A DNA stretch of 64,000 nt. It comes from Terriglobia bacterium (GTDB lineage: Bacteria > Acidobacteriota > Terriglobia > Acidiferrales > UBA7541). Location of the stretch: NCBI GenBank assembly GCA_020073605.1, contig JAIQEW010000013.1, forward strand, positions 1-64,000. The letters are read 5' to 3'. Positions 7,053-31,548 of this stretch are shown piece by piece (within the stretch, counting starts at the first letter, position 1; each line of letters opens with the position of its first letter). Both the position numbers and the translations under genes were made by a program. Below the pieces are notes generated by a model, which saw nothing but the letters and a program-made list of their open reading frames with translations, had not been told where the DNA came from and did not search any database.

Positions 7053-7315
7053 CGCGTGTTCCCCCATGCGCGGAGACTCCTGCACTGTGCGGCGTGCCGA
7101 TGCAGGACTTAGTGGCTCCCCTGAGCGCGGGAATAATCGCCCCATTGAGGATGTGTGTCAACCGCTCGCATCCGGTGCAACTAGCGGCGTAGTGGCGCCG
7201 CGATGAGCGTTAATGGAAGTTCGTCTCAGTGGTCTGGTAAGCTGAATTCCGCCTGCGGCGGTATCGGCCGCGACGTGCAGGTAACCAAGTGGGCATTTTC
7301 GGTGAACGGAAGCCC

Positions 7316-8515
7316 ATGAGAAACGTGCAGCCCAGAAGCATTTTGACGATGAATAGAGGGTCGGGAACTTTGAAGGCCGCCCTCTACGAAGTGAGCGAAG
7401 CGCCCCGCCTCGCTTTGACCATCTACGTGGAACGCACCGGCACGCCCGACGCTCGCCTCAGAATCAAGAATGCGGAGTCGGCGACGTTGCTGGACGCGGC
7501 CATCGGAAACAGCGAAACGAATGCCGATCTAGAAGCCATCTTCACGTGGCTCTCGGAACAAGGGCACGCATCGGAATTGATGGCGGCCGGGCACAGGCTG
7601 GTCCATGGAGGGCCCAGGTACACCGCACCGCAGCGGATCACGGAAGAACTTCTGGCGGAACTCCACAAGCTCGCGCCGCTCGATCCGGATCACACGCCGG
7701 AAGCGATTCGTGGGATTCGTTTCCTGACACAGCTGTTTCCGGAGCTCCCACAAGTAGCTTGCTTCGACACGGCATTTCACGGGTCTCTTCCCACAGTGGC
7801 GCGCATGTACGCCCTGCCCCGGAAGTTTTATGAAGAAGGCGTCCGGCGCTACGGTTTCCACGGCCTTTCGTGCGAGTACATCGTCCGGGAACTGCAAGCG
7901 ACGGAAGGCGATCTGGCAGGTGGGCGCGTGATCGTCCTGCATCTCGGAAGCGGCAGCAGCATGACGGCGATCCGGAATGGCAAGAGTGTGGACACGTCGA
8001 TGGGTTTTACACCTCTGGAGGGGCTCGTAATGGGCACGCGATCCGGCGACGTCGATCCGGGAGCGATCCTCTACCTTCAGGGACACGGCCACGCCTCGCC
8101 CGAAGGCATGGATACGTTGCTCAATAAGCAGTCCGGACTGCTAGGTGTTTCCGGCATCAGCGCGGACGTGCGCGACCTTTTGCAAAAGGAAGCCAGCGAC
8201 AGCCGCGCGGCCGAAGCAATCGAGCTCTTCTGTTACCGAGCCAGAAAGTATGTGGGCGCGTATGCCGCAGCGCTCGGCGGACTGGACATGCTCGTTTTCT
8301 CCGCGGGAATCGGAGAGAACTCTCCCGTGATCCGCGAGCGAATCTGCGAGGGATTGCAGTTCCTGGGCGTCAAACTCGACCATTCGCTCAACCACAAGAA
8401 TGCAGCTTCGATATCGGACCCGCACAGCCGGGTGAAAGTGCGGGTCATTCACACGGACGAGGATTCGGTGATCGTGCAACACGTCCTCGCGGTCCTCGGC
8501 GGGGAAAAAGCATAG
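7316..8515 (+). CDS. ackA: Acetate kinase
   Basis: Converts acetyl phosphate and ADP to acetate and ATP. About 399 residues, family size. The N-terminal phosphate loop reads MNRGSGTLK, a variant of the usual NAGSSSLK. Other family elements are clear: GHRLVHGG, FDTAFH (catalytic Asp), YGFHGLS (His), HLGSGSS, GFTPLEGLVMGTRSGDVDPG, FSAGIGENSPVIRE and a Glu in HTDEDSV near the end. The ATG at 7316 has CGGAAG upstream; the GTG at 7289 would add nine poorly conserved residues. The gene lies 9 bp before phosphoketolase, so its substrate is made by the next gene product. No copy of the island operator was seen upstream. Confidence 0.93.
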   Translation: MRNVQPRSILTMNRGSGTLKAALYEVSEAPRLALTIYVERTGTPDARLRIKNAESATLLDAAIGNSETNADLEAIFTWLSEQGHASELMAAGHRLVHGGPRYTAPQRITEELLAELHKLAPLDPDHTPEAIRGIRFLTQLFPELPQVACFDTAFHGSLPTVARMYALPRKFYEEGVRRYGFHGLSCEYIVRELQATEGDLAGGRVIVLHLGSGSSMTAIRNGKSVDTSMGFTPLEGLVMGTRSGDVDPGAILYLQGHGHASPEGMDTLLNKQSGLLGVSGISADVRDLLQKEASDSRAAEAIELFCYRARKYVGAYAAALGGLDMLVFSAGIGENSPVIRERICEGLQFLGVKLDHSLNHKNAASISDPHSRVKVRVIHTDEDSVIVQHVLAVLGGEKA

Positions 8516-8524
8516 GGGGCGCGC

Positions 8525-10978
8525 ATGTTTGTATTCGACTCGAAGCTGTCCACGGCGGTCGAGAGTCTGACCGCAGGCCGCGACACGCCCCCGCCCGCTC
8601 CATCAGGTCCTCTCTCCGCCGAGTTGCTGGCGAAGATGCATCGCTACTGGCAAGCGGCGAACTATCTGACCGTTGGACAGATCTATCTGCAAGAGAACCC
8701 GCTGCTCCGGGAGGAGCTTCGGCCGGAGCACATCAAGCCGCGCCTGCTCGGGCACTGGGGCACATCGCCGGGGCTGAGTTTCATCTACGTCCATCTGAAC
8801 CGTCTCATCAACGAAAAAGACGCGGAGATGCTCTACATCGCCGGGCCGGGGCACGGTGGTCCGGCATTGAATGCGAATGCCTACCTGGAGGGAACGTACT
8901 CCAGTGTCCGGCCGGAGATCACCGAGGACGCCGCCGGGATGCGCCTCTTTTTCCGCGAGTTCTCAATGCCCGGAGGCGTCCCCAGCCATTGCGGGCCGCA
9001 CGTGCCAAACTCAATCCACGAGGGCGGCGAGCTCGGTTACGCGCTTCTGCATGCGTTCGGCGCGGCGTTCGACAATCCCGACCTTATCGTGGCGTGCGTG
9101 ATCGGGGACGGAGAAGCGGAGACATGCCCCCTTGAGGGAAGCTGGAAAGGAAACCGTTTCTTGAATCCGGTAACCGATGGAGCGGTGCTGCCGATCCTGC
9201 ACTTGAACGGCTACAAGATTTCTGGTCCCACGGTGGAGGCGAGGACAAGCGACGAAGAGATCGGGAAGCTCTACGAGGGCCGCGGTTACAAGGCCTATTT
9301 CGTGGAGGGAGACGACCCGCCCCGGATCCATCAGGAATTCGCGCGCGTGCTGGACCAGTGCTACGACGAAATCCGCGAGATTCAGAAAGGCGCCCGGGAG
9401 CGCGGATTCTCGCACCGGCCGTGCTGGCCGATGATCGTCCTGCGCACGCCCAAGGGATGGACCGGCCCGAAGGAAGTGGACGGACTGCCGGTCGAGGGCA
9501 CGTTTCGGGCGCATCAAGTCCCCGTTGCAGGGGTGCGCGAAAATCCCGACCATCTGCGTCTGCTGGAATCGTGGCTGAAAAGTTACAAGCCCGAGGAACT
9601 GTTTGACGCAAGCGGGCGCTTCGTCAGCGAGCTGCGGGAATTGGCCCCGGCGGGAAATCGCCGGATGGGGGCAACCCCGCATGCCAACGGAGGGCGGCTG
9701 CTCACGCCGCTGGCGCTCCCGAATTTCGTGGATTACGCCCTGGAGGTGCCGGCGCCGGGCCGCGTGATGGCCGAGGCGCCGCGAAAGCCCGGAGAATTTC
9801 TGCGCGACATCATCGCGCGGAACCCCAAGACGTTCCGCTTCTTCTGCCCGGATGAGACAAATTCAAACCGTTTGAACGCGATGTTCGAGGTCACGGACCG
9901 GTGCAGCGTCGGCGAAACGGTTTCCATCGACGATCACGTGAGCGCACGCGGGCGCGTGGTGGAAGTTTTAAGCGAGCATTGCTGCCAGGGCTGGCTCGAG
10001 GGCTACCTGCTGACGGGCAGGCACGGTCTCTGGGCGTCGTACGAAGCGTTCGCGCAGGTGGTCGATTCGATGCTGACGCAGCATGCCAAGTGGCTCGAGG
10101 AAAGCGAAAGGCTGCCGTGGCGAAAGCCGCTCGCTTCACTCAACGTATTTCTCACCAGCCACGCCTGGCGGAACGACCACAACGGCTTCAGCCATCAGGC
10201 GCCTGGTTTCGTGGACAACGCGCTGGCCCGCCGGAGCGCGGTGATACGCATTTACTATCCGCCGGATGCCAATTGCCTGCTCAGCACGATGGACCACTGC
10301 TTGCGCAGCCGGAATTACGTCAACATCATCACGTGCGGCAAGCAGGAGCAGCTTCAATGGCTCACGATGGAGCAAGCGATCGCGCACTGCTCGCGGGGAG
10401 CGTCCACCTGGGAATTCGCCAGCAACGATGGAGGCAATCCGGATATCGTGCTCGCGTGCGTCGGGGATGTGCCCACTCTCGAGACGATCGCGGCTTCGTG
10501 GCTGCTGCAGAAGTACGTTCCGGAAATCAAGGTTCGGGTGGTGAATATCGTGGACCTGGCTGTTCTCATGAGCGCCGAAGAGCATCCGCACGGGATGGAC
10601 AATCTCTCGTTCTGCGAACTCTTCACTGAATCGGCGCCCGTGCTGTTCGCCCACCACGGATACCGGTGGAGCATCCACAGCATGATCCATGGGCGTCCCA
10701 ACGAGGCGCGCTTTCACGTGCGAGGGTTTATCGATGAAGGAAGCACCACCACTCCGTTCGACATGGTCGTGAGAAACAAGATCAGCCGGCTGCACCTCGC
10801 GCTGGATGCGTTGAAATATGTCCCCCGGCTTCGCTCGAAGTCGACGGATGTAACCGAGTTGCTCCGGCGCAAGCTCTTCGACCACAACGCCTATATTCGA
10901 GAGCACTTCGAGGACATGCCTGAGATCGCGCAATGGCGGTGGACCGACGATTTTCCAGGGCCCCGGGACGCCGCCTAG
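8525..10978 (+). CDS. xfp: Xylulose-5-phosphate/fructose-6-phosphate phosphoketolase
   Basis: Thiamine-diphosphate enzyme that splits xylulose-5-P or fructose-6-P with phosphate to give acetyl phosphate plus glyceraldehyde-3-P or erythrose-4-P. It has 817 residues, the normal phosphoketolase length. Diagnostic stretches are GPGHGGPALNANAYLEG, FSMPGGVPSHCGPH, the ThDP motif GDGEAETCPLEGSW with NGYKISGPT after it, TNSNRLNAMFE, and NDHNGFSHQAPGFVDN. The pair with ackA gives a route from sugar phosphate to acetate plus ATP without redox steps. A hairpin (11000-11016) follows the stop codon. Confidence 0.96.
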   Translation: MFVFDSKLSTAVESLTAGRDTPPPAPSGPLSAELLAKMHRYWQAANYLTVGQIYLQENPLLREELRPEHIKPRLLGHWGTSPGLSFIYVHLNRLINEKDAEMLYIAGPGHGGPALNANAYLEGTYSSVRPEITEDAAGMRLFFREFSMPGGVPSHCGPHVPNSIHEGGELGYALLHAFGAAFDNPDLIVACVIGDGEAETCPLEGSWKGNRFLNPVTDGAVLPILHLNGYKISGPTVEARTSDEEIGKLYEGRGYKAYFVEGDDPPRIHQEFARVLDQCYDEIREIQKGARERGFSHRPCWPMIVLRTPKGWTGPKEVDGLPVEGTFRAHQVPVAGVRENPDHLRLLESWLKSYKPEELFDASGRFVSELRELAPAGNRRMGATPHANGGRLLTPLALPNFVDYALEVPAPGRVMAEAPRKPGEFLRDIIARNPKTFRFFCPDETNSNRLNAMFEVTDRCSVGETVSIDDHVSARGRVVEVLSEHCCQGWLEGYLLTGRHGLWASYEAFAQVVDSMLTQHAKWLEESERLPWRKPLASLNVFLTSHAWRNDHNGFSHQAPGFVDNALARRSAVIRIYYPPDANCLLSTMDHCLRSRNYVNIITCGKQEQLQWLTMEQAIAHCSRGASTWEFASNDGGNPDIVLACVGDVPTLETIAASWLLQKYVPEIKVRVVNIVDLAVLMSAEEHPHGMDNLSFCELFTESAPVLFAHHGYRWSIHSMIHGRPNEARFHVRGFIDEGSTTTPFDMVVRNKISRLHLALDALKYVPRLRSKSTDVTELLRRKLFDHNAYIREHFEDMPEIAQWRWTDDFPGPRDAA

Positions 10979-11094: not shown

Positions 11095-11130
11095 GTGACA
11101 AGTACCACGTAGGAAAGTGACGCGGGTCAC
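11095..11130 (+). promoter_or_regulatory. Tandem CRP-type operator upstream of usp operon
   Basis: Two palindromes of form GTGA-N6-TCAC. Site 1 is GTGACAAGTACCAC (11095-11108, one mismatch), preceded by T to give TGTGA. Site 2 is GTGACGCGGGTCAC (11117-11130, perfect). The starts are 22 bp apart. The element ends 47 bp before the ATG of the first universal stress gene. No strong -10 hexamer is obvious. The same two-site layout occurs at 16868, 22748 and 31513. Confidence 0.75.
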
Positions 11131-16867: not shown

Positions 16868-16903
16868 GTGATAATCATTACGGAGACTTGTGACACAGAT
16901 CAC
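16868..16903. promoter_or_regulatory. Tandem CRP-type operator in divergent promoter region
   Basis: Site 1 GTGATAATCATTAC (16868-16881, one mismatch) and site 2 GTGACACAGATCAC (16890-16903, perfect, in context TGTGA), starts 22 bp apart. A TAATCT hexamer at 16928-16933 lies about 34 bp centre-to-centre after the perfect site, close to the spacing of a class II CRP promoter. The plus-strand gene begins at 16954; the minus-strand zinc-ribbon gene begins at 16693. Confidence 0.8.
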
Positions 16904-16953: not shown

Positions 16954-17370
16954 ATGGCTCAAGACGACCGAAACCTCGTCGATGTTCTCAAGGGCGAACT
17001 CAAGTTCTTGAAGGAGGGCGGTTATCGAAGGGCTTCGGGGTCTTCCTGGCGGCCCCAGTTCGTGTTCGAGGATTCCCCTTCGTGCCTGAACCAGAACCTG
17101 AGTACAGATCGGCGCCCATGCTTGGAGTGCGTGCTGATGCAGCTGGTCCCGGAGGATCGCCGCGAGGAACAAGCGCCATGCAGGCACATCCGGCTAAGCG
17201 AGAGCGGCGAGACACTTGATTCGCTGTATCGCACGGCGACCCGGGAAGATATCGAAGCCATTGTGGGCAAATGGCTCATGGCCAAAATACAGGAACTCGA
17301 ACAACAGCCGGTCGAGAAGTCCCGGCTTTCCAAGACTCCGGCAACCAAGTCCGGGGAACGCCACATCTGA
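16954..17370 (+). CDS. Unknown cytoplasmic protein with four-Cys motif
   Basis: 138 residues, no signal peptide or membrane segment. Cysteines at 44, 56, 59 and 76 (SCLN, PCLECV, PCRHI) form C-x11-C-x2-C-x16-C, which could hold zinc or an iron-sulfur cluster. The C-terminal part is helical and charged (EAIVGKWLMAKIQELEQQ). I do not recognise the family. It starts 51 bp after the tandem CRP-type operator, so it is one of the closest predicted regulon targets. The gene at 17401 follows 30 bp later and also has a four-Cys motif. Confidence 0.7.
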   Translation: MAQDDRNLVDVLKGELKFLKEGGYRRASGSSWRPQFVFEDSPSCLNQNLSTDRRPCLECVLMQLVPEDRREEQAPCRHIRLSESGETLDSLYRTATREDIEAIVGKWLMAKIQELEQQPVEKSRLSKTPATKSGERHI

Positions 17371-20432: not shown

Positions 20433-22730
20433 ATGAAGCAAGAGGGCGCGAGCCTCCAACCTCTCCCGTCCATTGCTCGCGACGAGAAGCGCAGGCAATT
20501 GCTCGAGTCGGTCCCCGATGCCACCGTCGTTGTGGACCAGACGGGCAGGATCATCCTGGCGAATGCCCAGACCGAGCGAATGTTTGGTTATTCTCCTCAG
20601 GAATTGGTTGGCCAGCGCGTGGAAGTCCTCATACCCGAAGATCTTCGAGATGCCCATGTGAAGCACCGCGCCGACTATGGTGCCGCGCCTCGCACGCGGG
20701 AGATGGGAGCAGGCATCGAGCTGAAGGGCAAACGCAAGGACGGAAGTACTTTCCCGGTCGAGATCAGCCTGAGTCCGTTCGAAGATCAAGACGGCCACTT
20801 CGTCGTGAGCGCGATCCGGGACGTGACGGATCGGAAGCTGGCCGAAGAGGCGATCCGATTGAGCGAGGAGCGATTTCGGCGCCTCGTGGCAGAGGTGAAA
20901 GACTACGCCATTCTCATGCTGGACCCGCAAGGCCGGGTGCAGAGCTGGAACGAGGGCGCCGAGCGGATCGAAGGCTATCAAGCCGATGAGATCATTGGGC
21001 GGCACTTCTCGTGTTTCTATCCTTCCGAGGATATCGAACGCGGAAAGCCCGAGGAGGGCTTGAGAATCGCCGCACGCGACGGCCGCTGGGAAGATGAAGG
21101 CTGGCGGATTCGCAAAGACGGGTCGCGCTACTGGGCGAGCGTGGTGGTGACGGCCCTGCACGATCCAAGCGGGAAGGTGCTCGGCTTTACCAAAGTCGCT
21201 CGGGATATTACCGAGAGACAGCGTGCTCGGGAAGCGTTTGTCCTCGAGATCACGAACGCGCTGCTCTCGAACCTGGATATCACGAAGCTGCTGTCCGCGA
21301 TCGGCGCGTGCGTGCGCCAGCTGAAAGAGTTCGACTACGCCACGCTGGCGCTGTATGACGCCGACACGAAGATGCTTCGTATGCACTTGATCGGCAGCGC
21401 GCCCGGGTTGGCTGCGTTTCCGGCCGAGAATCTGGTTCCGGTGGCCGGCTCACCTCCTGGCTGGGTCTATGTGTCCCGCAAGCCTCTCGTCCTGAAAGGC
21501 CTGCCGGGAGAGCGGCTGCCGGTCGAACTGCCTCCTTATGTGAGGAGCCAGTTCGTGAAATCCGCTTGCTGGATTCCTCTCGTGGGACGAGAAGCTTCTC
21601 TTGGGACCCTGAATCTGTTCAGCCAGCGCCAGGAAGCTTTCTCCGGTGACGACCTGGGAGTGCTTACTCAGATGGCGAACCAGGCCGCTGTTGCGTTGGA
21701 TAACGCCCTGGCTTTCCAGCGCATTTCGGACCTGAATAAACGGCTGGCGGAAGAGAAGCTGTACCTCGAAGACGAGCTGCGTCCGGAGAACAGCTTCGAA
21801 GAGATCGTCGGGCAAAGCAAAGAGTTGAAGCGCGTTCTGAAGCAGATCGAGACAGTCGCGCCGACCGACTCAACCGTATTGATCCTGGGGGAAACCGGGA
21901 CGGGCAAGGAACTTCTCGCACGGGCGGTTCATGACCTCAGCCCCCGCCGCGATGCGGCCTTTGTGAAAATGAACTGCGCCGCGGTCCCCGCCGGGCTCCT
22001 TGAAAGCGAGCTTTTCGGCCACGAGAAGGGCGCGTTCACGGGGGCGTTCGCCCAAAGGATCGGCAGATTCGAGCTCGCTCATCGCGGCACTCTTTTTCTC
22101 GACGAAGTCGGCGAAATTCCCCTGGATTTGCAGCCGAAGCTGTTGCGGGTGCTTCAGGAAAAACAGTTCGAACGAGTCGGCGGCAGCCGGACGATCATGA
22201 CGGATGTTCGCATCGTTGCCGCCACGAATCGCGACCTCGGCAAGCTCGTGGCCTCGGGCCAGTTTCGTATCGACCTCTTTTACCGGCTGAGCGTGTTCCC
22301 TGTGTCCGTACCCGCGCTGAGGGACCGGCCCGAAGACATTCCCCTGCTCGTCCAGCATTTCCTCTCTAAGTTTGCGACGCGAATGCGAAGATCCATCAAT
22401 ACAATCCCTCCGGAAACGATGGAAGCTCTCTGCCGGTATCCCTGGCCGGGAAATGTGAGGGAGCTGGAGCATCTGATCGAGCGCGCCGTAATCCTTTCTC
22501 CAGGGCCTGTGCTCAGGGTCCCGATCCTCGAGTTGTCCCAAGCCGAAGAAGTAGTTCCCAAGGGGTCATCCTCGCTCGAAAACGTGGAGCGCGAACACAT
22601 CCTCCGCGTGTTGCGCGAAACCGAGGGGAAGATCGGCGGGAAGGGCGGAGCGGCCGAACGCCTCGGAATGAATCGCACTACCTTGAACTCCCGAATGCGC
22701 AAGCTGGGAATCTCCCGAAACGACTTCTAG
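20433..22730 (+). CDS. PAS-PAS-GAF sigma-54-dependent transcriptional activator
   Basis: 765 residues. Domains in order: PAS (about 20-135), second PAS (about 145-265), GAF (about 270-420), AAA+ (about 455-690) and a Fis-type helix-turn-helix (about 720-762). The AAA+ part has Walker A GETGTGKE, the sigma-54 contact loop GAFTGA, and Walker [10 protein letters not shown]; the HTH reads [16 protein letters not shown]. It should sense a small molecule or redox state through PAS/GAF and open sigma-54 promoters, as FhlA-type activators do. No -24/-12 promoter was found convincingly in this window, so its targets are unknown. Confidence 0.93.
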
Positions 22731-22747: not shown

Positions 22748-22783
22748 TCGACATACATCACGCAGGGGTGTGATTTGCGTCAC
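22748..22783 (+). promoter_or_regulatory. Tandem CRP-type operator upstream of hsp20 operon
   Basis: Site 1 TCGACATACATCAC (22748-22761, right half perfect, two mismatches on the left) and site 2 GTGATTTGCGTCAC (22770-22783, perfect, context TGTGA), starts 22 bp apart. It lies 142 bp before the Hsp20 start codon. No strong -10 hexamer was seen, so the transcript start is unclear. Confidence 0.72.
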
Positions 22784-22924
22784 TGTCGGTCATGCCTCGG
22801 TGTGCGACTGTGACTTCGCGGTTCTGGCCTTTGAGATTCCTGCCCGCCGAGTCCGCAGAACAGGGCGCAGGTGGCCAATCCACAGTGGCCAGCGCTGACA
22901 CGAGTAGAAACGGAGGTAGAAGTC

Positions 22925-23449
22925 ATGGCAGAGAAATCCACCGCGGTGCAGCCAGCCAAGGAACAGACTCTATCGAAGCCAACAACTTTCGAGAGCTTAT
23001 TCGACCGGGCGAACGACGTCTTCGACGCCATTTCCCGCCGGGCGTACGAGATCTTCGAAGGCAACGGCTTCACATCCGGGGGCGCACTTCGCGATTGGAT
23101 CCAGGCGGAGAAAGAGCTGCTTCATCCCGTGCATATCAATGTCACGGAATCAGACGACGCCCTGGACATCAAAGCGGAAGTGCCCGGTTTCAACGAGAAG
23201 GAACTCGAAATCAACGTAGAACCCCGGCGGCTGATGATCAGCGGCAAGAGGGAAACCAGCAAGGAAGAAAAGAAGGGAAAGACGGTTTACTCCGAAACCT
23301 GCGCGAACCACATCATGCGCCTGATTGATCTGCCGGCGGAAGTCGAAACGGAAAAGGTCACGGCGGCGCTTAAGAACGGCGTGCTCGAACTCAAACTGCC
23401 CAAGGCGGCCAAGCCACGCACGGTTCGCGTTCAACCGAAAGTTGCCTAA
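22925..23449 (+). CDS. DUF2934-Hsp20 fusion small heat-shock protein
   Basis: About 174 residues. A DUF2934-like segment (about 35-70: ISRRAYEIFEGNGF, then DWIQAEKELL) precedes a canonical alpha-crystallin domain (about 75-165: INVTESDDAL, KAEVPGF, RRLMISGKRE, then LKNGVLELKLPK). The G-V-L-E-L motif and following I/V-rich tail fit Hsp20 holdases. The ATG at 22925 has GGAGGT upstream; the frame from 22871 adds residues without a ribosome site. It is the first gene of a run of co-directional genes (small basic protein, baeRF, GroEL-like, Usp) that reaches 27634. Confidence 0.92.
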   Translation: MAEKSTAVQPAKEQTLSKPTTFESLFDRANDVFDAISRRAYEIFEGNGFTSGGALRDWIQAEKELLHPVHINVTESDDALDIKAEVPGFNEKELEINVEPRRLMISGKRETSKEEKKGKTVYSETCANHIMRLIDLPAEVETEKVTAALKNGVLELKLPKAAKPRTVRVQPKVA

Positions 23450-23758: not shown

Positions 23759-23847
23759 CGTACGGTGCGGAAAATCGGAGCAACAGTGGGAAGCAATAGG
23801 CAACAACGCATCAAGCTCACTCGTACTTGTGCCAGGGAGACATTGCC

Positions 23848-25023
23848 ATGACAGCGAAGAGCACGCAAACGATTCAGACGAAGGCGGAAGTACAAGCGCC
23901 GGATTGGGCGGCTCTGGCGGCGGAGCGCGAGACGCCTTGCATATCGGTCTATCTCCCGCTCGGGTCAGGCGCCGCAGCGGCGAAGCCTGACTTCGCGCAA
24001 GTCAAGGCTCTGTTGGCGGCGTCAAAATCCAGTTTTGAGGGCGCGCCAGTCACAGCCGCGGAAGCCGAGGATCTACTGAGTTCGCAGTGGCATCGGGTCT
24101 TGGAAAGTCAGGCGATTCAGGGCGGCGGTGCCGCGGGATTGGTGCTGTTTCTAAACGGAGGGTTTTTCGCCTGCTACCAACTGCCGGCCTCATTTCCCGC
24201 GCGTGTAGTCGTCGGACGTGAATTCTATATTCGCCCCTTGCTTCACCTCGTGTCGGCGGACGATCAGTTTCTTGTTCTCGCCGCGAGCCAGAAGCACGTC
24301 AGATTTTTCAGGTGCTCTCGATACGGAATTCATGGACTGACGCTCGAGCGCATTCCCGAGATCCTGCGGCAGGATTTGGAAACCCACAGCATGGAGAAGC
24401 AGATTCAGTTCCACAGCGGCACGCCGTCACTGCCTGGGAAAAAGGGAGTCGTGTTCTATGGATCCGAGCCCGATCCCAAGGACAGAATTCTCCGCTTCTT
24501 TCGCGACATCGATCAGAAGGTGAAGGGGTCGTTGAAGGGCCACCACGCTCCACTGGTCGTCGCCACGGTCGACTATCTCTTCCCGATCTACAAGGCGGCG
24601 AACACGTACCCGCATCTTCTGGACACCAGCGTCTCAGGAAACCCGGATTTGACGACCCCAGAGGCGCTGCACGCGGCAGCCTGGAAAATCGTCGAGAAGC
24701 ATCTCGAGGAAGCAAAAGACCGCGCCTTCGGGGTCTACAAGGACCACATCAACACCGATAGCACGTCGAGCAGCCTGCGCAAGGTGCTCCCGGCAGCTCA
24801 AGAAGGCCGCGTCCGCTTTCTCTTCGTGCCCGAGGAAACGGAACACTGGGGTTCACTGGTTCCCCCCGAAACTGTGCACGTGCACGGCAATCGCGAGATC
24901 GGAGACCAGGAACTGTTGAATCTGGCGGCCGTCTTGACGATCCGAGGGGGCGGTCAGGTCTACATCGTCGCGCAAAATCAGCTGCCTCAGGGTGCGGAGC
25001 TGGCGGCGGCGTTTCGCTATTGA
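23848..25023 (+). CDS. baeRF-type protein (eRF1/Pelota-like, family 3)
   Basis: About 391 residues. The middle part contains HLVSADDQFLVLAASQKHVRFFR and later LVVATVDYLFPIYK, the pattern of the bacterial archaeo-eukaryotic release-factor-like families. These share the eRF1/Dom34 fold and are proposed to act on stalled or hibernating ribosomes. No signal peptide. The ATG at 23848 is chosen because GGGAGA precedes it; the frame from 23827 starts with a rare upstream codon. Its place between chaperone genes fits a role in translation arrest or ribosome rescue under stress, which is inference. Confidence 0.72.
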   Translation: MTAKSTQTIQTKAEVQAPDWAALAAERETPCISVYLPLGSGAAAAKPDFAQVKALLAASKSSFEGAPVTAAEAEDLLSSQWHRVLESQAIQGGGAAGLVLFLNGGFFACYQLPASFPARVVVGREFYIRPLLHLVSADDQFLVLAASQKHVRFFRCSRYGIHGLTLERIPEILRQDLETHSMEKQIQFHSGTPSLPGKKGVVFYGSEPDPKDRILRFFRDIDQKVKGSLKGHHAPLVVATVDYLFPIYKAANTYPHLLDTSVSGNPDLTTPEALHAAAWKIVEKHLEEAKDRAFGVYKDHINTDSTSSSLRKVLPAAQEGRVRFLFVPEETEHWGSLVPPETVHVHGNREIGDQELLNLAAVLTIRGGGQVYIVAQNQLPQGAELAAAFRY

Positions 25024-25063: not shown

Positions 25064-26686
25064 ATGGCGGGCAAACAGCTTCTTTTCAGGTCCCAGGCGC
25101 GTGAGAAGGTGCTTAAGGGCGCCACTGCGATCACCGACGCCATACGTATCACGCTGGGCCCCAAATCGAAATGCGTCCTCATCCAGAGGAAGTGGGGAAA
25201 GCCCATCGTGTGCAACGACGGCGTGACGATCGCCAAGGAAGTTGACTTAGAGAACGCGGAGGAGAATCTCGGGGCGCAAATGATCCGTGAGGCCGCCGAG
25301 CGCACCGGCGACATCGTCGGCGATGGCACCAGCACTTCGGCGATTCTCACCTGGGCTATTTTTGCGGAGGGCCTCCACAACATTGCCGCGGGCGCGAGCG
25401 CCGTGGATTTGAAGCGCGGGCTGGATCGCGGCTTGCGCGCGGCCGTCCAACAGCTGAAGACGCTGGCGCGGCCGGTGACGAGCCGCTTGGAAAAGAGCCA
25501 GGTGGCGACGATATCGGCGCACAACGATACCTCGATCGGTGAGCTGGTTGCCGATGCCGTCGAGAAAGTGGGCGCGGAAGGCGTGATCACGGTGGAGGAA
25601 GCGAAGACGACCGAGACGGCGCTGGAGGTCGTGGAAGGCATGCAATTCGATCGCGGCTACATTTCGCCTTACTTCATTACGGATGCCGCGAAAATGGAAG
25701 CCGTTCTCCTCGATCCTGCGATCCTGATCCACGAAAAGAGGATCACCAATCTCCAGGACCTCCTGCCCCTGCTGGAAGAGATTTCCAAGGCCGGGCGTTC
25801 CCTGCTCGTCATCGCGGAAGACGTTGACGGCGAAGCGCTGGCGACTCTCGTCGTGAACAAAGTAAGGGGATCGCTGGCGTCGGCTGCGGTGAAAGCTCCT
25901 GGATTCGGCGACCGCAGAAAAGAAATGTTGCAGGACCTCGCGATTTTGACGGGGGGCACGGTGATTGCCGAAGAGCTCGGCATCAAGACGGAGAATGTGA
26001 CGCTCGACCAACTCGGCAAGGCCAAACGGGTTGTCATCGATCGCGACAAGACGACCATCGTGGAAGGCGCCGGCTCGAAAGCCGCCATTGAAGGACGCTG
26101 CGCCGAGATTCGCGACCAGATCCAGGTATGCAAGTCGGATTACGACCGTGAGAAGTTGGAGGAGAGGCTTGCGAAGCTGGCCGGCGGTGTCGCTTTGATT
26201 CGCGTGGGCGCGCCTTCCGAAGCGGAACTAAAGAACCGGAAAGAAGCCTTCGAGGACGCCATCAGCGCCACAAAGGCGGCGGTGGCGGAAGGGATCGTTC
26301 CCGGCGGCGGGCTGGCGTTTCTTCGGCTGATCGATGCGATCACGAAAGAAGAAGCGAACTGCTCGGGTGACGAACGCACGGGACTGTCGATCCTCAAGCG
26401 CGCTCTCGAAGCGCCGACGCGGCAGATTGCGGAGAACTCCGCCTGCGATGGCGGCGTTGTAGTGGATCGCATGCGGTCCGGGCAGGGCGACTATGGATTC
26501 GACGCGGCCCGCAGCGAGTACGTCGATCTGGTCAAGGCAGGGATCGTGGATCCCGTGAAAGTCGTGCGGGTAGCGTTGGAAAACGCCGTGTCTGTCGCGA
26601 GCGTCCTGCTGTTGACCGAAGCGACCCTCACGGAAATCCCGGAAGACAAAAAGGACCGCGCGGTGCATGAAATGGCGGAGGCGTAG
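25064..26686 (+). CDS. GroEL-like chaperonin, orphan paralogue
   Basis: 540 residues of the Hsp60 family: [11 protein letters not shown] near residue 30, [11 protein letters not shown] near 50, the ATP-site motif [10 protein letters not shown] (normally GDGTTTATVL), [14 protein letters not shown] near 280 and [11 protein letters not shown] near 410. It lacks the Gly-Gly-Met tail of housekeeping GroEL; the protein ends [10 protein letters not shown]. No groES lies next to it. AAAGGAGAG precedes the ATG. It follows the baeRF gene by 40 bp and is followed by a universal stress gene. It is probably a stress-specific second chaperonin using GroES encoded elsewhere, or working without it. Confidence 0.93.
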
Positions 26687-26749: not shown

Positions 26750-27634
26750 ATGAAGCTATTGATCGCCACCGATCTTTCGCCGAACTCGCGGCAGATGATG
26801 GAAACCATAGTGGCGCGCCCGTGGCCCGCCAGAAGCACGGCGTGCATCCTTCACGTCGTGGATTTCAGTCCCTACACGCTGGGCTCGGAACTATTGAAGG
26901 TGGCCAGGCGTTCGGCGGAAGACTCGCTGAAATCCGCGGTCAAAGAACTGGAATCATCCTCGCTCAAGATCCAGACAGAAGTCCTGATCGGATATCCTCG
27001 AAACGCGATCCCCAAGTACGCCAAGGATTGGGGCGCCGATTTCATCGCCGTGGGATCACACGGACGTGCCCTCGGACGTTTTCTGCTAGGGAGCGTCGCA
27101 CAGGCGGTGGTCCGCAAGGCGTCCTGTTCCGTGGAGATCGTGCGTCCGCGAGCGGAGAAGCCTGCGCGCGGGGCGCCCATGAAGATTCTCCTTGCGATCG
27201 ACGGCTCAGGTTGCTCGAAGGCGGCAATCCGGTCCGTCGCGAAGCGCCCCTGGCCACCCGGGACGAGTTTCAAGCTCCTGAGCGTTGTGCCACCGTTCAT
27301 GCCCGCTATGGATGTGGCCGCGCCCTATTTCTACATCGATCAATCGGCTCAGGCGGCCGATATCGTCGAGGGTGAGGCTCGGAAACGCGCTGTGGAGGCT
27401 ATTGCAGAGGCCCAGGGCTTGCTGAGCCGGGCCGGCATTCAAGCGCTCGCAGGTGACGTGCCGCCGCTGGGTGATCCGAGAACCGTAATCCTGGACGAGG
27501 CAAAACAATGGGGTGCTGACCTGATTGTGCTGGGTTCGCATGGTTGGCGCGGAATCGACCGCATCATGCTGGGAAGCGTCTCTGAAGCGGTCGCGATGCA
27601 CGCGTCCTGCTCGGTTGAACTCATCCGGGGCTGA
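26750..27634 (+). CDS. Universal stress protein, two UspA domains
   Basis: 294 residues with two UspA domains. Here the second domain carries the canonical ATP pattern G-x2-G-x9-G-S (GSHGWRGIDRIMLGS), while the first is one residue short (GSHGRALGRFLLGS). This is the reverse of the two paralogues at 11178 and 12136, so it belongs to a different Usp lineage. It is the last gene of the hsp20-baeRF-groEL run. The stop is followed by 331 bp without a gene. Confidence 0.92.
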   Translation: MKLLIATDLSPNSRQMMETIVARPWPARSTACILHVVDFSPYTLGSELLKVARRSAEDSLKSAVKELESSSLKIQTEVLIGYPRNAIPKYAKDWGADFIAVGSHGRALGRFLLGSVAQAVVRKASCSVEIVRPRAEKPARGAPMKILLAIDGSGCSKAAIRSVAKRPWPPGTSFKLLSVVPPFMPAMDVAAPYFYIDQSAQAADIVEGEARKRAVEAIAEAQGLLSRAGIQALAGDVPPLGDPRTVILDEAKQWGADLIVLGSHGWRGIDRIMLGSVSEAVAMHASCSVELIRG

Positions 27635-27781: not shown

Positions 27782-27899
27782 TCGGGAAGGCACGTCTTAA
27801 CTTCCGAAAGAATCCCGCCGTTTCTTCCTATCTCCCTGATTAGGTGTCTCTTGCAAGGACGCCTCTAAGTGGCGGTCAATGGGCCTCGCTCGTGCAATT

Positions 27900-27935
27900 G
27901 TGATCTGTGCACGTCGATGACGTGCTGCAGATCAC
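27900..27935 (+). promoter_or_regulatory. Symmetric CRP-like element before the regulator gene
   Basis: GTGATCTG at the left edge (27900) mirrors CAGATCAC at the right edge (27935). Inside, TGCACGTC faces GACGTGC, giving a 36 bp imperfect inverted repeat. Its outer half-sites are GTGA and TCAC, and its two 14 bp windows (27900 and 27922) share the 22 bp register of the other operators, but the inner half-sites are degenerate. It ends 30 bp before the start codon. Autoregulation is the natural reading. Confidence 0.6.
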
Positions 27936-27965
27936 GTCTAAGAGGGTGAGACAAGGAGATACGAG

Positions 27966-28685
27966 ATGCGTGGACCTTACGGATTGGAACTCGTGGAAGA
28001 TTGCAAGGCGTGCCACATGCGTCAAGACGGATTCTTCTGCCAACTGCCATGCGCGGCAGTCGAGAAACTCAACAGCGCCAAATTCACGAGTGCCCATCCC
28101 GCGGGTGCCGTGCTTTTCGTCGAAGGGCAGCTTCCGAAGGGCGTGTACATGCTGTGCAAGGGGCGCGTAAAACTCACGATGAACTCCGCGGACGGCAAGA
28201 CGCTGATCGTTCGAATCGGCGAGCCGGGCGAGATCCTCGGATTGCACGCGACTCTCTCCGGTGACCCTTACGAATTGACGGCCGAGGCCCTGCAGCCGTG
28301 CCAGGTGAACTTCGTGCGGCGCGATGATTTTCTGAGAATGCTGCGCGAGCATCCGGAGGCTTCTGCCGCGGTGGTTCGCCAGGTCAGCGACGGCTATCGC
28401 ATGGCCTGCCGGGAAATTCGTTACCTCGGTCTCTCCCGGTCCGCCAGCGAAAAAGTCGCGCAGTTCCTGCTCGAGTCGGCGACCCATGCGCAAGCAACGG
28501 GCCAGGGCAAGCGCTTCCATCTGGGCCTGACGCACGAGGAAATCTCTCAGATGGTCGGCATTTCGCGCGAGACAGTCACTCGGACACTCTCCGAGTTCAA
28601 GAACAAGATGTTGATTGCGACCAAGGGTTCGACGGTCGTCATCAGGAATGAATCAGGTCTGAGAGCTCAGGCCGCCGCGGCGTAA
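27966..28685 (+). CDS. FNR/CRP-family regulator with FNR-like cysteines and CRP-like reading helix
   Basis: 239 residues. An N-terminal cluster Cys13, 16, 25, 29 (C-x2-C-x8-C-x3-C) precedes a cyclic-nucleotide-fold domain (about 40-130). Cys112 (LQPCQVNF) aligns with the core cluster ligand of FNR. The CRP Arg-Ser pair for cAMP is absent (DPYEL instead). The helix-turn-helix (about 188-212) reads EEISQMVGISRETVTRTL with Arg201, Glu202 and Arg206, the CRP pattern that reads GTGA. FNR has Val at the first of these positions. AAGGAG precedes the ATG. I predict an Fe-S or thiol redox sensor controlling the TGTGA-N6-TCAC sites of this island. Confidence 0.92.
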   Translation: MRGPYGLELVEDCKACHMRQDGFFCQLPCAAVEKLNSAKFTSAHPAGAVLFVEGQLPKGVYMLCKGRVKLTMNSADGKTLIVRIGEPGEILGLHATLSGDPYELTAEALQPCQVNFVRRDDFLRMLREHPEASAAVVRQVSDGYRMACREIRYLGLSRSASEKVAQFLLESATHAQATGQGKRFHLGLTHEEISQMVGISRETVTRTLSEFKNKMLIATKGSTVVIRNESGLRAQAAAA

Positions 28686-31512: not shown

Positions 31513-31548
31513 GTGATGCGAGTCACTCTCTGGTGTGACTCATCCCAC
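31513..31548. promoter_or_regulatory. Tandem CRP-type operator between divergent genes
   Basis: Site 1 GTGATGCGAGTCAC (31513-31526, perfect, context TGTGA) and site 2 GTGACTCATCCCAC (31535-31548, one mismatch), starts 22 bp apart. On the minus strand GATACT (31485-31490) lies 32 bp centre-to-centre after the perfect site. On the plus strand TATGCT (31573-31578) lies 34 bp after the second site. Both are at class II CRP spacing, so the element could drive the metal ATPase and the glucan phosphorylase genes. Confidence 0.8.

Follow-up and report, generated by a model that had tools for sequence, protein, structure and literature searches.

A CRP-fold regulator of Acidobacteriota with a candidate four-cysteine sensor site and predicted 22-bp tandem GTGA operators

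The regulator gene and its genomic island

The window, i.e. the whole stretch of 64,000 nucleotides analysed here, belongs to a 3.66 Mb Acidobacteriota genome; among its named relatives, the closest are MAGs carrying the labels Acidobacteria and Candidatus Acidiferrales. It harbors a gene for a CRP/FNR-superfamily regulator embedded in an island of stress-related and metabolic genes (Table 1). Assignment to the superfamily is based on the Pfam domains cNMP_binding (PF00027, 1.6e-18) and HTH_Crp_2 (PF13545, 2.3e-18), both above their cutoffs, and on an AF2 model combining a beta-roll with a Crp-type HTH (pLDDT 85 overall, 64–74 in the N-terminal arm). Structural comparison of this model yielded GlxR as best match (Z 25.9) and holo-FNR as an equally good one (Z 25.1–25.8), residues 12 and 239 superposing on residues 19 and 246 of the latter. 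Cysteines are located at positions 13, 16, 25, 29, 64, 112, and 148, and the RETV sequence of the recognition helix starts at residue 201. A previous sequence-only reading of this DNA had delimited the open reading frame and placed Cys13, 16, 25, 29, and 112 correctly, while overlooking Cys64. That reading also described the Arg-Ser cAMP contact of CRP as missing, and the columns of CRP R83/S84 (initiator Met counted) are indeed occupied by Y102/E103; judged by these residues, the regulator is not a cAMP-CRP.

Genes of the island recur around orthologs of the regulator. Those preceded by operators in the window are universal stress protein (USP) genes, the Hsp20 gene, the P-type ATPase/glucan phosphorylase pair and the operon starting at 16954, and their neighbours encode a GroEL-like protein, a baeRF (bacterial archaeo-eukaryotic release-factor-like) protein, the PAS-GAF sigma-54 activator, phosphoketolase and acetate kinase.

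Table 1 Features of the regulator island and of related loci. Positions refer to the window, except in the last row.
Feature	Position	Strand	Evidence or remark
Acetate kinase	7289–8515		Pfam Acetate_kinase
Phosphoketolase	8525..10978	+	Pfam XFP
Tandem operator, dyads 22 bp apart, GTGACAAGTACCAC-N8-GTGACGCGGGTCAC	11095..11130	.	1/16 mismatch; upstream of USP gene 11148+
Tandem operator	16868..16903	.	1/16 mismatch; between 16777(-) and 16954(+)
PAS-GAF sigma-54 activator	20433..22730	+	Pfam; beside orthologs in L055, L056, L059, L060, L062, L063
Tandem operator, one perfect and one weak site	22748..22783	.	2/16 mismatches; upstream of Hsp20 22871+
Hsp20-family chaperone	22871..23449	+	Pfam HSP20 1e-20
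baeRF protein	23827–25023		Island member, recurs in orthologous islands
Cpn60/GroEL-like chaperonin	25064..26686	+	Pfam
Double-domain universal stress protein, adjoins regulator	26750..27634	+	Pfam Usp
Imperfect inverted repeat TGTGATCTG...CAGATCACG	27899–27936		Just upstream of regulator start; spacing wider than normal operator
Weak site GTGCTGCAGATCAC	27922..27935	.	1 mismatch of 8; 31 bp before regulator's ATG
CRP/FNR-superfamily regulator, 239 aa	27966..28685	+	Pfam domains, AF2 model
Cys13-x2-Cys16 codons, N-terminal half of candidate four-Cys site	28002..28013	+	Conserved in 112/126 and 109/126; covary with C25, C64
Cys25 codon (FC-x-L)	28038..28040	+	109/126
Cys64 codon, beta-roll strand (VYMLCKG), candidate fourth member	28155..28157	+	109/126; FNR Arg72 column
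Cys112 codon, earlier proposed ligand, rejected	28299..28301	+	58/126; FNR S119 column
Recognition helix R201-E202-T-V-T-R206, CRP type	28566..28583	+	E. coli CRP columns; RE...R in all full-length members listed
Tandem operator	31513..31548	.	1/16 mismatch; between divergent P-type ATPase 31426- and glucan phosphorylase 31662+
HTH-less sensor ORFs, other loci	L075 from 1824; L076 from 2358; L087 from 3283; L078 from 2355; L013 2399–2791		Possible dominant-negative or heterodimer partners

GTGA operators and their tandem arrangement

R201, E202, and R206 fall into the RE...R columns of CRP, the first of which holds V208 in E. coli FNR, and alignment thereby confirms the CRP-type Arg201-Glu202-x3-Arg206 helix, with Val at its first position in FNR, that had been read from the letters before. 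An FNR-type helix (V/I/L-E-x2-S-R) is replaced by RETVTR, and the FNR-type site TTGAT-N4-ATCAA has one match only in the genome. By contrast with control patterns, GTGA-N6-TCAC is strongly enriched near genes of the family: 114 occurrences were counted within 400 bp of these genes (~99–100 kb), compared with 4 for the reversed pattern, 1 for TTGA-N6-TCAA, and 2 and 1 when the spacer was set to 5 and 7, respectively. The extended pattern WGTGAYNNNNRTCACW is present 24 times in the genome of the window versus once for its control. The island itself contains four perfect intergenic sites (11117, 16890, 22770, and 31513), in line with the GTGA-type operators reported earlier, and one further perfect site in the window is intragenic. 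Detection depended on exact half-sites and control patterns, as scans of the window with two mismatches showed no excess over shuffles for either consensus.

Occurrence of these sites follows that of the family. Within the same genus, single-site counts range from 2 to 25 (median 9) in genomes with a family member and from 0 to 2 (median 1) in those without (p=3e-4). More distant genomes (G049, G053, and G057) harbor 10–14 single sites with no family member detected, and a similar site adjoins the CRP-type paralog L003, AGTGAC-N4-GTCACT lying beside an L003-type gene in three genomes; some single sites may therefore belong to other regulators.

The sites are frequently paired. A second site exactly 22 bp away was found in 66 partner hits, mutual pairs being counted twice, versus at most 5 at any other offset between 10 and 50 bp. 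Allowing up to two mismatches, the 36-bp tandem pattern occurs 26 times in the genome, four of these in the window, and never in the control. Across the rest of the taxonomic family (36 genomes besides this one), the median number of tandem operators is 9 with a family member and 1 without (p=9e-6). Promoter geometry points in the same direction: a TANNNT box, measured at its first base, lies 29.5 bp from the proximal dyad in 16 of 178 arms (mean per position, 1.0), and at the same distance in 12 of 108 arms for single sites (mean 0.9), although the two sets partly overlap and the counts are somewhat inflated by near-identical loci. This distance would place the proximal dyad at -41.5, where class II activators bind, and the other dyad of a tandem at -63.5. 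Only two of the four operators in the window, however, display even a weak -10-like box at class II distance: CCTAAT for the 16868 operator, 29 bp away from its proximal dyad towards 16954, and GATACT for the 31513 operator, equally far from its proximal dyad on the ATPase side. In the part of the literature covered, neither this subfamily nor 22-bp tandem operators of CRP/FNR proteins were found described, which is weak evidence of absence.

Site clustering, exact spacing, genome co-occurrence, and promoter position together lend strong support to a CRP-like reading head matched to GTGA operators, and thus to the proposal of the sequence-only reading that regulator and sites match. The operators might mainly serve another CRP-like paralog, either the cysteine-free L002 or L003, leaving a minor or specialised role to the window protein: L002 shares the ARETVTR helix and has a double site less than 5 kb away, and the L003-type gene has its own adjoining site, as described above. 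Four tandem operators nevertheless lie within ~20 kb of the window gene, where 0.45 would be expected in 64 kb (p ~0.001), and the genomes G017, G006, and G013, which carry orthologs of the window protein (P0001), contain 20, 15, and 19 tandem pairs, respectively. We regard the paralog alternative as improbable and infer that the window protein is the binder of these sites. Autoregulation via the weak site upstream of the regulator is possible, the site being weak on its own. An imperfect inverted repeat also lies in this upstream region (Table 1).

Outside the window, operators of this type also occur in intergenic regions next to a haem-copper oxidase operon, a CtaG-type gene, and genes for a formate/nitrite transporter, a ribosomal S30AE-type (hibernation-type) protein, a nitroreductase, isocitrate lyase and a corrinoid protein with a URO-D-type partner. 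The predicted targets would suit a regulon for low oxygen or energy limitation, and the oxygen or redox control predicted by the sequence-only reading is compatible with the USPs, Hsp20, the oxidase operon, the formate/nitrite transporter, and the S30AE-type protein among them. At L190:7669, a tandem operator precedes genes for a corrinoid protein and a URO-D-type protein, suggestive of a demethylation pathway that shares this control.

Four covarying cysteines in the putative sensor region

Conservation of the cysteines was compared across 126 family members, all from Acidobacteriota genomes. A CxxC-x(5-10)-C motif and C64 are both present in 105 members and both absent in 16, with five exceptions (table 105/1/4/16), an association with a Fisher p of 1.1e-15, uncorrected for ancestry. 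Of 27028 column pairs separated by six or more residues, the five scored ones within the quartet C13-C16-C25-C64 rank 1, 2, 3, 4, and 6 by corrected mutual information, those involving C64 ranking 2, 3, and 6. When the cysteine columns are excluded from the maximum-likelihood tree, the four-Cys state requires about seven changes on it and the all-lost state three; independent contrasts for co-loss on well-supported branches comprise too few pairs to reach significance. The association within the quartet is clear, though it rests on a handful of events. Incomplete quartets occur in three relatives that are one cysteine short (L023, L080, and L137) and in L027, which keeps the triad and carries Leu at position 64. 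The paralogs L002, L125, L126, and L158 have lost all four cysteines and retain the fold and the RE...R helix, which indicates that the quartet is dispensable for folding and more likely a sensor.

Two other cysteines were rejected as ligands. Cys29 is found in the window protein alone (1/126), and Cys112, conserved as listed in Table 1, shows no association with the N-terminal triad over the 126 members (Fisher p=1), its pairs ranking near or below 10000 of 27028. C148 is present in 37 of 126 members. In an alignment with E. coli FNR and CRP, C13 and C16 occupy the columns of FNR C20 and C23, C25 lies at FNR column 32 and C64 at that of Arg72; C112 corresponds, with no gap intervening, to FNR Ser119 and CRP Cys93, a non-ligand. 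Cys64, on another beta-roll strand, thus replaces Cys112 as candidate fourth ligand. What remains of the earlier FNR-like sensor is a modified form built on C13-C16-C25-C64; its Cys112 component fails both alignment and covariation.

The four-Cys site probably binds an Fe-S cluster, through which it may sense O2 or redox state. The pattern of cysteines would look no different with zinc or thiol chemistry. A structural Zn ion held by the four cysteines could staple the N-terminal arm to the beta-roll, leaving a small molecule in the cNMP pocket as the effector; C-x2-C-x8-C plus one cysteine is compatible with Zn, and the cNMP_binding fold is intact. As the four paralogs without these cysteines keep fold and helix nonetheless, and the Arg-Ser contact for cAMP is missing from the pocket, we consider this arrangement unlikely. 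Redox switching through cysteines is known from CprK of the same superfamily, and a metal-free thiol/disulfide switch, in which oxidation pairs Cys64 with an N-terminal cysteine and alters DNA binding, would accommodate the relatives that are one cysteine short. Two cysteines would suffice for such a switch, yet four are kept together and the CxxC spacing equals that of FNR C20-x2-C23, so that a disulfide switch appears rather unlikely. A true FNR-type cluster on Cys13, Cys16, Cys25 (or Cys29), and Cys112, the core FNR ligand in the sequence-only reading, is very improbable: Cys112 does sit on the strand of the fourth FNR ligand, but three residues off, with Asn115 in the FNR Cys122 column, and 57 of the 106 relatives that keep the triad lack it.

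Four relatives from a plasmid collection were examined as well. One, from Bernardetia (Bacteroidota), harbors C-x2-C-x8-C and a cysteine two residues before the Cys64 column, and another, from Acetoanaerobium (Clostridia), has CxxC, a cysteine at the Cys64 column and the RE...R helix; as single proteins, these suggest that the layout may extend beyond Acidobacteriota.

Further family genes were observed at other loci. Several ORFs beside full-length family genes contain the sensor domain, frequently including its cysteines, and no HTH within the range of the hit (Table 1); they could possibly act as dominant-negative or heterodimer partners. In the window's own genome, L069:9352-10182 (contig C8) is a paralog with 43% identity that lacks the quartet cysteines, keeps the ARETVTR helix and has a double GTGA site less than 5 kb away, possibly a sensor-less paralog acting on the same operators. 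L070:9137 (C20) is an L003-type CRP paralog with AGTGAC-N4-GTCACT about 50 bp past its stop codon, and such sites also lie beside relatives in G021 and G029; we read the L003-type paralog as a probable second regulator of overlapping specificity. The only canonical FNR of the assembly is encoded by L071 on a 10 kb contig (C26), whose k-mer similarity to the window is 0.908 versus 0.947–0.967 for 10-kb window pieces. This gene shares ~70–73% DNA identity with betaproteobacterial fnr and is possibly a contaminant or a recent transfer.

Relation to known regulators and predicted mode of action

The regulator shares with FNR of E. coli and Aliivibrio fischeri the CRP fold (Z 25.1 on 5e44), the CxxC columns C20/C23 and the combination of cysteines in the N-terminal arm and the beta-roll. 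It differs in the third cysteine, spaced by x5 in FNR versus x8 here, in the fourth, located at column 122 versus the proposed column 72, and in its reading of DNA, with VE...SR and TTGAT-N4-ATCAA in FNR versus RE...R and GTGA-N6-TCAC here. Only the first two of the FNR ligand columns 20, 23, 29, and 122 are common to both, and on the evidence of ligand spacing and column, helix and sites, the regulator is not FNR proper. E. coli CRP and actinobacterial GlxR/CRP resemble it in recognition-helix residues, GTGA/TCAC half-sites, and class II geometry, GlxR also being the best fold match, whereas the regulator lacks the CRP Arg-Ser contact and has an N-terminal cysteine arm and 22-bp tandem operators. 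Bacillus subtilis Fnr likewise is a redox-sensing CRP/FNR protein, an Fe-S sensor with a CRP-like operator; its cluster cysteines are located at the C terminus, whereas those considered here comprise the N-terminal ones and Cys64, and the regulator has no cysteine after residue 148. The consensus of Bacillus subtilis Fnr, TGTGANNNNNNTCACA, equals TGTGA-N6-TCACA (Reents 2006, as quoted in PMC8151001). According to that quotation, redox sensing and TGTGA reading are joined in this protein, and the hybrid of FNR-like sensor and CRP-like reading head suggested earlier is therefore not new in principle. In Burkholderia cenocepacia, the low-oxygen-activated (lxa) locus is rich in universal stress proteins, and a CRP/FNR-type regulator has been proposed as its oxygen sensor (PMC6127331). 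This analogy concerns gene content only, the betaproteobacterial match found here being a canonical-looking FNR.

We propose that the regulator activates transcription as a dimer of CRP fold and belongs to a subfamily rich in Acidobacteriota members. Its HTH would read GTGA-N6-TCAC, as judged from site statistics, with a dimer at the class II position (dyad ~-41.5) and often a second dimer exactly 22 bp upstream (~-63.5) on the same face of the DNA, and the two tandem dimers may cooperate. Cys13, Cys16, and Cys25 of the N-terminal arm, together with Cys64 of the beta-roll strand, would form a four-cysteine site governing activity. The most likely occupant of this site is an Fe-S cluster that O2, NO, or oxidation would remove or modify. 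With the cluster intact, a low-oxygen/energy-stress regulon would be switched on, including universal stress proteins, Hsp20, the P-type ATPase, glucan phosphorylase, the haem-copper oxidase, the formate/nitrite transporter, and the hibernation-type factor. To this reading as a whole, a class II activator of CRP fold with tandem GTGA operators, a four-Cys, probably Fe-S site and a low-oxygen/energy-stress regulon, we assign a probability of about 0.58. More tentatively, and with the balance of our judgement against it, a second, FNR-independent cluster-site layout of three N-terminal cysteines and one on the FNR-Arg72 strand could rule the main low-oxygen/energy-stress regulon of many Acidobacteriota by acting as pairs of dimers at the 22-bp tandem operators, with paralogs that lack the cysteines and sensor copies that lack the HTH modulating the same sites.

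As far as the partial literature coverage shows, the C13-C16-C25-C64 layout is new, and so is the pervasive use of 22-bp tandem operators. The layout suggests that a cysteine sensor within the CRP fold can have its fourth ligand at a position unlike that of FNR, and FNR searches that rely on Cys122 would overlook such proteins. Acidobacteriota belong to the commonest bacteria of soils, and in some of them transcription responds to a drop in oxygen. In Acidobacterium capsulatum, for example, uspA transcripts increase with decreasing O2 (PMC11636273); the passages covered name no regulator. The protein described here would offer a concrete candidate regulator for this oxygen response, along with an operator, a promoter geometry, and a list of targets.
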